A stretch of 64,000 nt of DNA from Lachnospiraceae bacterium (GTDB lineage: Bacteria > Bacillota > Clostridia > Lachnospirales > Lachnospiraceae), in NCBI GenBank assembly GCA_910574885.1, contig CAJTDD010000016.1, positions 1-64,000 on the forward strand, read 5' to 3'. The notes below the pieces were generated by a model. That model had not been told where the DNA came from. It did no database searches and saw nothing but the letters and a program-made list of their open reading frames with translations. A program made the position numbers and the translations under genes. Below, one piece after another: positions 22,173 to 34,306 of this stretch (position 1 is the stretch's first letter; every line of letters starts with the position of its first letter).

Positions 22173-22204
22173 CTTTTTCCGATTATGGACGTATTCTAAA
22201 TATG

Positions 22205-22290
22205 TTGCATAGGGGTGCTTAGAATGGCTGAGATGTATGCAGAGCATACGAACCCTTCAAACTTGATCCGGGTAATGCCGGCGTAAGGAA
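22205..22290 (+). ncRNA. TPP riboswitch (THI element)
   Basis: The conserved TPP aptamer segments are present in order: AGGGGTGCTTAGAATGGCTG, then the CTGAGAT core at 22228-22234, a variable hairpin TATGCAGAGCATA, ACCCTTCAAACTTGATCC and GGGTAATGCCGGCGTAAGGA. The element ends just before the thiT ribosome site, so it probably controls translation initiation when thiamine diphosphate binds. Confidence 0.95.
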
Positions 22291-22304
22291 AGGAGAATTT
22301 CATA

Positions 22305-22868
22305 ATGTCACAAACTAATTCTGTCACAGGCAGGAGTGCGTCTTCTGCCGTCAAAAAGCTCGTTTTTTCTGCAATGGGAATCGCACTTGCAATGGTTACT
22401 TCCTATATAAAGGTATGGGAGATGCCAATGGGCGGTTCGGTCACGCTATTATCCATGCTGTTTATTTGCCTGATTGGTTATTGGTTCGGAGCCGGTTACG
22501 GAATCCTCACCGGGGTCGGATATGGCTTCCTGCAATTTATTGCAGACCCCTATATGATGTCCATTCCACAGGTACTTTTTGATTATCCCCTTGCTTTCGG
22601 TGCATTGGGATTGTCGGGATTTTTCAGCGGCAGGAAATATGGGCTGCAAATAGGTTATGTTGTAGGCGTGTTGGGTAGATTCCTGTGCTCAACGCTGTCC
22701 GGCGTGTTCTTTTTCGCCGCATATGCGCCGGAAGGAATGAATCCATGGGTGTATTCTTCCCTGTACCAAGGAAGTTACCTCGGGGCAGAAGGGATCATAA
22801 CGCTGGCGATTATATCCATACCGCCTGTGGCAAAGGCGTTGGATACGGTGAAGAGACAGGCGATGTAA
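22305..22868 (+). CDS. thiT: thiamine ECF transporter S component
   Basis: The 187-residue protein has six membrane helices and ThiT features: GIALAMVTSYIKVWEMPMGG, then ADPYMMSIPQVLFDYPLAFG, and LPYxG-like helices. The acidic and aromatic residues after the first helix form the thiamine pocket. It must pair with a shared ECF ATPase/transmembrane module encoded elsewhere. The TPP riboswitch directly upstream confirms the thiamine assignment. A rho-independent terminator follows. Confidence 0.95.
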   Translation: MSQTNSVTGRSASSAVKKLVFSAMGIALAMVTSYIKVWEMPMGGSVTLLSMLFICLIGYWFGAGYGILTGVGYGFLQFIADPYMMSIPQVLFDYPLAFGALGLSGFFSGRKYGLQIGYVVGVLGRFLCSTLSGVFFFAAYAPEGMNPWVYSSLYQGSYLGAEGIITLAIISIPPVAKALDTVKRQAM

Positions 22869-28540: not shown

Positions 28541-28838
28541 AGGGAACAGACAGACGAAGTCTGAAAAGATTTTGGCAGGAATCGCGAAAGTCCATTGCGT
28601 CTTGCCTTTTTATATGGTATACTTCTTACATAAGAATCTTAAAAGGTGTTCACCTTCTATTTTCTATCCGACAGTTCGCCGGATTATTCAATCATTATTT
28701 TAAGTATGCAGATTATGAGATTCTTAATATTGAAGATTTTGTTATCAGACATCAATGATTTCTTTTGAAATCCTGCTTCTCTATGTGTATGTTTCATGAT
28801 ATGATGAATCTATACAGTAAAAGTCTTCCTAAGAGAAT
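28541..28838 (+). repeat. 298-bp duplicated segment, copy A
   Basis: This segment matches 33066-33363 over 298 bp with about six substitutions and no gaps. It contains a terminator-like hairpin (GGCAGGA with TCTTGCC, followed by TTTTT). It also holds the upstream region that in copy B precedes the Rpn-type transposase. Here the transposase gene is absent and the segment ends against a MalF-like relic. Confidence 0.92.
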
Positions 28839-28972
28839 TCTTTGCCACCCTTAAAGGTGAGCTGATAAGCATACATGACCATGGTAGTCGTTGACATGAA
28901 AGGTCCGCCGCCGGTCATGGTATACACGATATCGAACACCTGCATGGAGCTGATAATTGCCAGAAACATAAG
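28839..28972 (-). pseudogene. relic of a sugar ABC permease (MalF type)
   Basis: On the minus strand one frame reads LMFLAIISSMQVFDIVYTMT followed by GGGPFMSTTTMVMYAYQLTF. This is the conserved region near the C-terminus of MalF-like carbohydrate permeases, with the FD-VY-MT-GGGP and ST motifs. About 45 codons survive, without start, stop or flanking helices. It is cut at one end by the 298-bp duplicated block and at the other by a UroD-like relic on the opposite strand. Confidence 0.8.
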
Positions 28973-28975
28973 TTA

Positions 28976-29245
28976 AATGAGCTGAGCCTTGACAACATCA
29001 TCGACCTTGGGCGTGCCGTTGAGGAACTGGGGAATCAGATTCCGATTGCGGGAAATATAGATCCCGTGGAAGTGGTGATGAATGGCAGCAGGGAGGAAAT
29101 CCATAGGGAGGCGCTAAGATGTATTGAGATTGGACAAAAGGCAGAGAAAGGGTATGGGTTGGCCACCGGGTGCGATGTGCCGGAAACAGCGAAACCTGTG
29201 CAGATTGACTGGATGATGGAGGCGGTCAGGGAATACTGCCGCTAA
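28976..29245 (+). pseudogene. 3' relic of a UroD-fold methyltransferase gene
   Basis: An uninterrupted frame of about 89 codons ends at TAA 29243-29245. It contains IPIAGNIDPVEVVMNGSREE and GYGLATGCDVPETAKPVQ, the C-terminal pattern of UroD/MtaA-like proteins including the third zinc-ligand cysteine. There is no start codon with a ribosome site and the N-terminal two thirds are missing. It is not a copy of the UroD-fold genes at 15-19 kb, judging by the different residues. Confidence 0.78.
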
Positions 29246-29278
29246 AATAGCATATACTGAGTATAAGCTTCATTTTGC

Positions 29279-29307
29279 TTGACTTCTGTAAAAAGTCATT
29301 GTAAAAT
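29279..29307 (+). promoter_or_regulatory. strong sigma-A promoter upstream of the AbiF-associated RNA
   Basis: TTGACT at 29279-29284 and TAAAAT at 29302-29307 are exactly 17 bp apart. Transcription would start near 29314, well upstream of the protein gene, leaving a structured leader. Confidence 0.75.
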
Positions 29308-29313
29308 AAGCTT

Positions 29314-29385
29314 AGTGATCGTACTGGGGAAACTTGTGAAGCCCTCAGTCCGGAAGGCTCCTGAGGGAGCCTTTCGTTATATTTT
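29314..29385 (+). ncRNA. candidate abiF-type structured RNA
   Basis: Two helices can form. ACTGGGG pairs with CCCTCAGT (one bulged T) around 29322-29349, and AGGCTCC (29355-29361) pairs with GGAGCCT (29366-29372) over the loop TGAG. That loop can also pair with CTCA at 29344-29347, giving a pseudoknot. The second helix is followed by TTCGTTATATTTT and may terminate transcription. A promoter lies just upstream and an Abi_2/AbiF gene about 80 bp downstream, the position where the published 'abiF RNA' motif occurs. I could not test the covariance model, so the identity is provisional. Confidence 0.55.
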
Positions 29386-29463
29386 GATAATGCAATCCTT
29401 GGTGTAATATGGATAGGACAGGAGGGAATCGGAACGTCAAAGACCTTTAAATCATATGAAGAT

Positions 29464-30351
29464 TTGTTAGAAATCTTACAAAAAGATAAAAATCTGATAA
29501 TCGATGATATAAGTTATGCAAGACGTATTCTAGCGAAGACGGGCTATTTTTCTCTGATTTCTGGTTATAAATCTATTTTTAAAAATCCAACTACCGGAAA
29601 ATTTAAAGATGGTACTACTTTTGAAGACATATATAGGCTCTATTTATTTGACAATGAATTGAGAAGTATATTTTTGAAATATATACTCATCGCCGAGCAT
29701 GGTATAAAATCTTCATTAGCATATTATTTTACGGAAGCATATGGAGAAGATCAAAAAGAATATTTATCGATGGAGCATTATATGGTGACAAAATCAACAC
29801 AGTGCGATGTACGGAGGATGATAAATATTCTTTCTTACAATATTACATATAGAAGTGACTATACGTTTATAACACATTACAAAAATCAGCACAAAAACGT
29901 GCCGTTGTGGATTATGATTCAAGTATTGACGCTTGGACAGCTTTCGCATATGTTTGATCTGCTAAAAGCAAATGTGCCCATTAAAATGTGTTGTAGTTAT
30001 CATGATGTTGGACGGAAAGATATGCACTCTTTCTTATCTGTTATGACAAAACATCGAAATGTCTGTGCTCATGGAGAGCGTTTTTATAATTATGTTACAA
30101 AAGATAGTATTACAGATACGTTGCTTCATAAAAAGATAGAGATATCACGGGAAAAAGGACGTTATCAGAAGGGGAAGACAGACATTTTCTCTGAGGTGAT
30201 TATTTTAAAATATCTTTTAGATAAAGAAGATTTTCATAATTTTTATTATGAACTGATACGTTGCTTCAAAAAATATCGTCCGAATGAGAAGATAATGAAT
30301 ATTATGGGTTTTCCTGAAAAATGGATGGCTATCATACGTTTAAAATTATAG
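29464..30351 (+). CDS. AbiF/AbiD-like abortive infection protein (Abi_2, HEPN)
   Basis: The 295-residue protein has the Abi_2 pattern: RRILAKTGYFSLISGYK near the start, LYLFDNELRSIFLKYILIAEH in the middle, VPLWIMIQVLTLGQLSHMF, and the RNase motif HRNVCAHGERF with R198 and H203 (RxxxxH). This HEPN ribonuclease family acts in phage defence by abortive infection and is considered ancestral to Cas13. The homologous N-terminus seems to begin earlier: in-frame codons before TTG 29464 read TSKTFKSYED, and GGAGGG sits at 29421-29426, but no ATG, GTG or TTG exists there. AT-rich composition differs from its neighbours, suggesting transfer. Confidence 0.85.
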   Translation: MLEILQKDKNLIIDDISYARRILAKTGYFSLISGYKSIFKNPTTGKFKDGTTFEDIYRLYLFDNELRSIFLKYILIAEHGIKSSLAYYFTEAYGEDQKEYLSMEHYMVTKSTQCDVRRMINILSYNITYRSDYTFITHYKNQHKNVPLWIMIQVLTLGQLSHMFDLLKANVPIKMCCSYHDVGRKDMHSFLSVMTKHRNVCAHGERFYNYVTKDSITDTLLHKKIEISREKGRYQKGKTDIFSEVIILKYLLDKEDFHNFYYELIRCFKKYRPNEKIMNIMGFPEKWMAIIRLKL

Positions 30352-33395: not shown

Positions 33396-34306
33396 ATGAA
33401 TAAGACACAAAATGGAATGCAGACACAGACAGATTTTATTATGTCCCCGACCGTTGATGTATGTTTTGCCGGATTAATGGAAAATCCTGTTGTACGGAAA
33501 GGATTCTGTGCGGCTGTTATGCGGGTTCCGCCGGACCTGATTGGTGAGACAATGCTTGTTCCTACACATCTGCGCAGAGAGAATGCCCAGGATAAACTGG
33601 GAATTTTGGATGTTCTGGTAAAATTAAAAGATGGGACACATATCAATCTGGAGATGCAGGTGAGATATTTTGAGTTCTGGGATGAGAGGGCGCTGTTTTA
33701 TCTCAGCAGGATGTTTTCCGGCAGTTAGAATACGGGGATTCTTATGAAAAATTAGGGAAATGTATCCATGTCAGTATTTTGGATTTTGTACGCTTCCCAG
33801 AGGATGAGAAGTGTTACCGTACCCTGCATTTTAGAGATGATGAGAGTAGTGAGCTTTATAATGATAAGATGGAGATTCAGATTCTGGAACTTAGGAAGTT
33901 GCCGGAGGAAGTGCGGACAGGGGAGGACATTGTGGATTGGATGCGTTTCTTGAAAGGAAAAAGCAGGGAGGAGTTTGAGCGGATGGCAGAAACAAGCGTA
34001 TATTTTGGAGAAGCATATGAAGCGTTGCAGCGATTAAGTGCGGATGAACGGAGACGATTGGAATATGAAGAACGGGATAAGGCGTTGAAAGATTATAATA
34101 CACAGATGAGCAGTGCGCTAAGGCAGGGGCAGAAGATTGGAGAAGAGATAGGAGAGAATGCCGGTATTCATTTAGTATGCAATGTATTGAATTTGCATGC
34201 ACAGGGAAAATCTGTCGAGGAAATTGCAGCAGTATGTAATTCGAGCATTGAAAAAGTACAGATGATCTTACAGAATGTAAAAAGCATTTTTCAGAAGAGG
34301 ATTTAA
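33396..34306 (+). pseudogene. Rpn/PDDEXK-family nuclease-transposase, frameshifted
   Basis: The first part (33396-33728) has MSPTVDVCFAGLMENP, KLGILDVLVKLKDGTHINLE and MQVRYFEFWDERALFYLSRM, the PD-(D/E)XK core of Rpn family recombination-promoting nucleases. It stops at TAG after MFSGS. One base out of frame the protein resumes as QLEYGDSYEKLGKCIHVSIL and continues to 34306, ending in a basic helix-turn-helix-like tail. A one-base deletion near 33720 explains it. ATG 33396 has AAAGGAG upstream. It is a recently inactivated mobile-type gene. Confidence 0.85.

Follow-up and report, generated by a model that had tools for sequence, protein, structure and literature searches.

In the window, that is, the whole 64,000-nucleotide stretch of Lachnospiraceae DNA analyzed here, a gene for an AbiF-like protein is preceded by its own promoter and by a small folded RNA which, as judged by covariance models, is distinct from the abiF RNA family of Rfam (RF03085). 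By its architecture and by analogy to characterized relatives, the pair very probably constitutes a type III-like toxin-antitoxin or abortive-infection module, in which AbiF is the toxin and the RNA its antitoxin. The kind of module is already known; it is the RNA type that is new.

The toxin gene extends from the start point of its relatives to the stop codon (29434-30351, forward strand), within an open frame spanning 29365-30351, and a ribosome-binding-site-like AGGAGG can be read from the sequence at 29420-29425 on the same strand. Its product matches the Abi_2 domain (PF07751; E 1.8e-44, 152.7 bits against a gathering score of 25.6) and the AbiD model of PADLOC (E 3.9e-61), and contains the motif R-N-V-C-A-H (30055-30072, forward strand), which conforms to the R-(polar)-x3-H signature of HEPN RNases and whose R, N, C, A and H are invariant in all 16 aligned proteins; the original prediction of an Abi_2 gene with an RxxxxH HEPN motif was thus borne out. 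The alignment of the window protein and its relatives matches PDB 8vz6 over nearly the full length (E 1.1e-27), with the R and H of the motif aligned to those of RNSCCH in that structure. No ATG, GTG or TTG occurs in the window at the aligned start point of the relatives, the first being the TTG at 29464, and with no standard start codon there the window toxin is probably weakly made or decaying; the window RNA looks intact. Of 200 genomes from this bacterial family, 56 have AbiF. Scanning genomes with the window protein by itself gave no matches, and from the scan with the protein alignment A1 the best 80 of 322 relatives were taken; the protein alignments exclude L006 and L087 (in-frame stop), and A1 further excludes L013, L014, L021 and L022.

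Just upstream of the promoter (28829-29245) lie overlapping gene fragments that by eye resemble a sugar-transporter permease and a uroporphyrinogen decarboxylase, and 3-4 kb downstream (33396-34306) a PDDEXK_2 transposase-type gene is split into two pieces. These agree with the mobile-element debris that had been proposed for the region, but the other Pfam-matching neighbors are ordinary (glycosyltransferase, acyltransferase, GH123, DUF2064 and VTT), and the description is only partly right. A TPP riboswitch is found at 22201-22306 (73.8 bits).

The R1 family of folded RNAs

The promoter, TTGACT-17-TAAAAT (29279-29307, forward strand), is placed such that its second hexamer ends 5 bases before the first modeled base of the RNA (29313-29383, forward strand), which covers the 71 positions of our covariance model R1, scores 79.1 bits in the window and has no Rfam match. 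Sites resembling TTGACT-17-TAAAAT occurred at chance level in the scan (4 found against 6.2 expected). Across the family, an upstream promoter site matching at least 9 of 12 positions is present in 72 of 75 distinct R1-family RNAs, as against 7.2% of 375 shuffled upstream stretches; its spacer measures 17 bases in 71 of those 72 sites and the 5-base offset to the RNA recurs in 66 of the 72. The promoter originally predicted at this position is thereby upheld as a conserved site.

Within the RNA, helix 1 (29323-29349, forward strand) has 7 pairs and a 13-base loop, AAACTTGTGAAGC, with inner pairs 29333-29341 and 29334-29340, and is followed by a terminator-like second hairpin (29351-29376, forward strand) with the tetraloop TGAG at 29362-29365 and then a T-rich end. 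The window RNA folds with a z-score of -2.36, equal folding being reached in 5 of 200 shuffles. Its R1 score lies inside the range of its relatives, the window copy being one of the sequences on which the model was trained, and the locus itself is the single R1 match in the window's own genome.

Of 103 AbiF loci whose protein is at least 37% identical to that of the window, 102 have an R1 RNA no more than 300 bases upstream of the gene; the set includes the window's own locus, and some records in it were reached twice. The 75 distinct R1 RNA sequences from these loci formed the alignment for the structure tests, in which the structure pairs in 95.3% of cells. Of 1419 pair cells, 265 had changed on both sides, where shuffling gave 70.8 on average, and such changes affected 15 of the 19 pairs (shuffled mean 12.0). 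The R1 covariation score of 0.632 (0.309 in shuffled alignments) was reached by 0 of 500 shuffles, and the signal was destroyed when partner columns were slid by one to three; RNAalifold alone recovered 17 pairs, 15 with compensatory changes. The predicted two helices with a terminator-like end are thus well founded. The same cannot be said of the pseudoknot proposed between TGAG and an upstream CTCA, whose covariation (0.366) is no higher than that in shuffles (0.367) and whose CTCA sits in the 3' arm of helix 1. A pseudoknot between the leader and the UGCG loop was also rejected, 493 of 500 shuffles reaching its covariation score.

Helix 1 is paired in 99.0% of cells, with changes on both sides at 5 of its 7 pairs, and the second hairpin in 94.0%. 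The nearly invariant tetraloop of the latter is UGCG in most relatives, with UUCG and UGAG also present, all of which we take to belong to the stable UNCG/YNMG-type class. Seven columns of the alignment are invariant, of which five close or lie within the helix 1 loop and none of these five falls in the terminator stem; the helix 1 loop, with most of the invariant columns, is the likely contact with the toxin. In the genome scan with R1 no score falls between 46.4 and 37.3 bits, which makes it unlikely that the higher-scoring copies are chance terminators. R1 matched 0 of 10 low-identity AbiF loci (L023-L031 and phage phiC2, L032), which were kept out of the counts and among which the L024 sequence begins only 10 bases before its match.

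The original prediction had pointed to the described abiF RNA motif. Membership of the window RNA in that family was rejected, as RF03085 had no match at E <= 10 in the window (29150-29520), none at the cut-off of 37 bits in the loci of 20 relatives, and none in two scans of the window's own genome, in both of which the controls too were silent, though 15 family genomes matched in one of them. Those 15 of 200 genomes matched at E <= 0.001, four of them over the cut-off, and at least 5 of their 17 places are followed, some 85-130 bases downstream, by AbiF matches of a more distant kind; the model also matches phage phiC2 (37.6 bits) and cyanophage S-CREM1. As RF03085 does not match the R1 RNA, homology between the two RNA types cannot be claimed. 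No earlier description of the R1 RNA family or of AbiF decoys was found in the literature, of which our coverage is incomplete.

The AbiF-R1 pair as a candidate toxin-antitoxin module

RNA type and toxin clade go together. When 34 AbiF proteins are placed in a tree, a single branch (support 95/97) separates all 17 rows belonging to the R1 group from the rest; the RNA is upstream in 16 of these and downstream in one (L014). RNA type changes once on the tree, against 11.8 times in shuffles. The four rows counted as carriers of RF03085 group together elsewhere, though weakly supported (87/31); the definition is a loose one, since L119 (36.7 bits) and L027 (34.6 bits) lie below the cut-off and L116 has its RNA downstream of the gene. 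The remaining 13 rows were scored as having neither RNA: 0 of 13 has an R1 match, and 10 tested rows lack RF03085 at the cut-off, L256, L264 and L266 not being among those ten.

The two partners are lost unequally. In the 200 family genomes the R1 RNA lies directly upstream of 21 of 22 full-length toxins (at least 36% identity), the exception, G190, having a copy just downstream, and the toxin is thus almost never without its presumed antitoxin. Conversely, 26 of 48 R1 RNAs of at least 45 bits have no full-length toxin downstream, although these include contig-end copies, interrupted toxins and two copies downstream of abiF, and the true solo share is therefore smaller. Such lopsided loss fits an antitoxin, because antitoxins can be kept alone and toxins cannot. 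Copies just downstream of abiF were also seen in L033 (1321-1392), L078 (2958-3029), L010 (2465-2536), L086 (3968-4039), L068 (1248-1318) and L014 (2142-2212), L010 and L086 being the same locus; all except L014, whose toxin lacks an upstream RNA, carry an upstream copy as well, and a toxin can thus be flanked by two. In L015 (247-385) two RNA copies stand in tandem before one abiF gene.

What is seen at the locus and its relatives is therefore a gene, a promoter, a structured RNA, co-inheritance with one AbiF clade and a toxin almost never without the RNA; in addition, RNA, terminator and toxin gene follow one promoter in the order that, by sequence features alone, is the layout of type III toxin-antitoxin systems. 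Because RCd22-AbiFCd works in this manner and 8vz6 matches with the R/H motif aligned, we regard the two partners as toxin and RNA antitoxin, the RNA being of a new type. RCd22 is described as neutralizing AbiFCd both in cis, by early termination, and in trans, by direct binding to the toxin, with R202 and H207 of the HEPN motif needed for toxicity (PMC12373285). By analogy, the window promoter would give an RNA of about 70 nt, most transcripts ending at the terminator hairpin and read-through past it providing the toxin mRNA. The RNA would fold into helix 1, with its conserved 13-base loop, and the terminator hairpin, and for the R1 type we infer that the folded RNA would bind the AbiF HEPN RNase and hold it inactive. 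Phage infection or stress, the presumed trigger, may then lower the RNA or compete for it, such that AbiF would cut RNA and growth would stop. Early termination, RNA binding and neutralization, toxicity and the need for R and H are in this scheme carried over from a relative's experiments, and would apply here provided that the R1 RNA type acts like RCd22, as we infer. Control of the nuclease by the RNA, one of two roles originally envisaged for it, is well supported by conservation, covariation, co-inheritance, the lopsided loss and the C. difficile experiments (PMC12373285).

It is improbable that the RNA acts in cis only, as a riboswitch-like leader with a regulated terminator that never binds the toxin. 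A terminator-like second hairpin does stand before the gene in the window and its relatives, and cis repression is part of the mechanism reported for RCd22; but so is activity in trans (PMC12373285), and although the terminator tetraloop is also nearly invariant, the weight of invariant columns lies at the helix 1 loop and not in the terminator stem. Moreover, solo copies still pair without the gene (93.3% of cells for 42 bacterial copies, in an alignment fitted to the model), and the copy in a tRNA array of phage contig L234 directly precedes a tRNA and has lost its T run. The other role originally envisaged, in which the RNA would guide AbiF to target RNAs as crRNA does Cas13, is highly unlikely even though AbiF has been proposed as the Cas13 ancestor (PMC12737573), as conservation or compensatory change extends along most of the 75 aligned R1 RNAs, which contain no variable, spacer-like stretch.

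Solo RNA copies in bacterial genomes and phage tRNA arrays

With the RNA read as an antitoxin of AbiF, copies that stand without the toxin gene deserve attention; the unexpected part is their number and their place in phage tRNA arrays. In bacterial genomes, 43 of 80 further RNA loci with at least 600 bases of downstream sequence have no AbiF match above 100 bits within 400 bases, a proportion that is not a rate since the loci were chosen chiefly among those not yet known to have a toxin. At least 8 of these 43 keep an abiF fragment by the RNA, in one the toxin lies on the upstream side, and another reaches no more than 37.3 bits; 29 of the 43 (67%) still have a promoter-like site. Solo RNAs might arise where recombination between flanking copies removes the toxin. 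The position of the solo RNA is conserved in L149, L157, L162 and L179, where one and the same gene follows about 210 bases downstream; in L149 this gene has a weak zeta toxin match (26.3 bits against a cut-off of 22.3). Searches with gene pieces near other solo RNAs recovered a HicB antitoxin-like match in L158, SocA/Panacea in L180, nucleotidyltransferase substrate binding in L205 and, below the cut-off, Phd/YefM in L201.

R1-type copies on viral contigs were obtained by pattern scans of a viral collection together with the covariance model. With 76.1 bits, the RNA of L234 (5597-5667) and L224 (201-271) takes up the space separating tRNA-Met from tRNA-Arg, the L234 contig also encoding a terminase and a head maturation protease. 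The RNA of L318 and L367, with 69.1 bits, lies 348 and 523 bases from tRNAs, L367 belonging to a record of 163 kb; the L318 tRNA region also holds a ROOL RNA, so that tRNA regions evidently hold other small RNAs too. Shorter or weaker versions occur inside or beside tRNA arrays in L242 (7469-7538), L292/L355/L379, L362 and L357; helix 1 alone is present in L317, L357 and L362, and little of the second hairpin in L219, L306 and L368. The TGATCG leader and UGCG tetraloop, though absent from the search patterns, are present in L234, L318 and L358. For several copies in or near phage tRNA arrays no clear promoter of their own was seen. Cyanophage S-CREM1 has an RNA of the other type (L428; OP535465), where RF03085 matches at 2532-2568 between tRNA-Asn and tRNA-Gly (52.2 bits); the phage is described as lytic and its abiF RNA was first reported in PMC9964418. 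In L368 (301-825) the AbiF-type hairpin is followed by the Rfam DUF3800-VIII RNA and a just sub-threshold DUF3800-VII RNA, forming a cluster of small structured RNAs; the DUF3800-VIII RNA resembles the hairpin at first sight but is distinct from it, lying about 340 bases beyond.

Abi_2 was matched in 0 of 24 viral records bearing solo copies (23 from IMG/VR and S-CREM1), with both positive controls matching; as many of these records are fragments and several are look-alikes (L224/L234, L318/L367, L292/L355/L379, L357/L395, L219/L226, L238/L239 and L306/L368), the count amounts neither to proof of absence nor to 24 independent cases. Fourteen aligned phage copies pair in 96.1% of cells, in an alignment fitted to the model. 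Pair counts from the model-fitted alignments (A4 and A5) lean towards the model. Six queries of a phage collection gave no named relatives of the phage solo RNAs.

Seven viral search patterns were used, and most of the stretches found are not the RNA: one pattern found none, another 11 stretches with none passing 20 bits, and in another 5 of 17 had at least four further stem pairs; the control, a single scrambled pattern with 6 stretches, is thin. For the pattern with at least 120 stretches, at least four further stem pairs were seen in 18 of 120 among the matches listed, the others lying in open frames with a median of 220 codons, and most of its matches are chance occurrences, probably in genes. 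When look-alikes among the same 120 listed matches of this one pattern are merged, a tRNA is found no more than 1 kb away for 5 of the 10 groups that have a stem and for 0 of the 43 that do not (p 9e-5); three of the ten include a contig with abiF and one (L354) lies in a long open frame.

We propose, with confidence evenly poised, that phage solo AbiF antitoxin RNAs placed among tRNA genes, and made and trimmed with the tRNAs, serve as decoys that would keep the host AbiF RNase off, and that such decoys evolved at least twice, once from R1 and once from RF03085 in S-CREM1. Bacterial solo copies may likewise neutralize incoming AbiF modules. A plausible if less favored alternative is that solo copies are mere relics of decayed modules, those on phages having been carried along with tRNA arrays, or serving in the processing of these, and playing no part against AbiF; in its favor stand the abiF fragments at bacterial solo loci and the ROOL RNA in the tRNA region of L318. 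However, relics of broken genes fit the viral records poorly given the 0 of 24 Abi_2 matches, subject to the look-alikes and fragments among them, and compensatory pairing persists in solo copies, even if choosing and aligning them with the model favors such pairing. The leader and tetraloop that lay outside the search patterns, and the recurrence of the other abiF RNA type in a tRNA array of S-CREM1, also argue against it. If the phage solo copies are indeed decoys, phage tRNA arrays would be places to seek RNA counter-defenses.

Relationship to known AbiF systems and phage RNA mimics

In Rfam, annotation of the RNA half of AbiF systems is confined to matches of RF03085. That a further RNA family goes with a toxin clade of its own shows RNA and protein to diverge together, and the R1 model provides a means to find and annotate such modules. 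Like the R1 RNA, the RF03085 abiF RNA is small and precedes a gene of the AbiF family (PMC12373285 and the family genomes), but its carriers fall in a different toxin group. The closest experimental parallel is RCd22-AbiFCd of C. difficile prophage phi027 and phage phiC2 (PLoS Genet 2025; PMC12373285), with which the window shares a promoter, a short hairpin RNA, a terminator and then an Abi_2/AbiF gene with R-N-x3-H. The window RNA nevertheless has a different hairpin and no RF03085 match, whereas RCd22 is reported to carry two RF03085 motifs (PMC12373285), one of which we found in phiC2, and the window protein is only about 27% identical to the AbiF of that phage. PDB 8vz6 is the structure of PbAbiF solved with its AbiFr RNA (PMC12737573), and is described as a HEPN dimer with one RNA per monomer, the RNA inhibiting the RNase (PMC12737573, PMC12373285); the likeness of the window system to it lies in the protein.

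For the phage copies, two precedents can be considered. The pseudo-ToxI of phage PhiTE is described as an RNA resembling a type III antitoxin with which the phage grows despite the ToxIN toxin (PMC3475682); it differs from the phage AbiF-type RNAs in its toxin family, in being repeat-based and in having been tested by experiment. The RNA-based anti-CRISPRs, or Racr, are reported as solitary copies of defense RNAs on phage genomes without the defense genes (PMC10651486). While Racr mimic CRISPR repeats, the phage copies found here would derive from a toxin-antitoxin RNA, and several of them sit in or near tRNA arrays.
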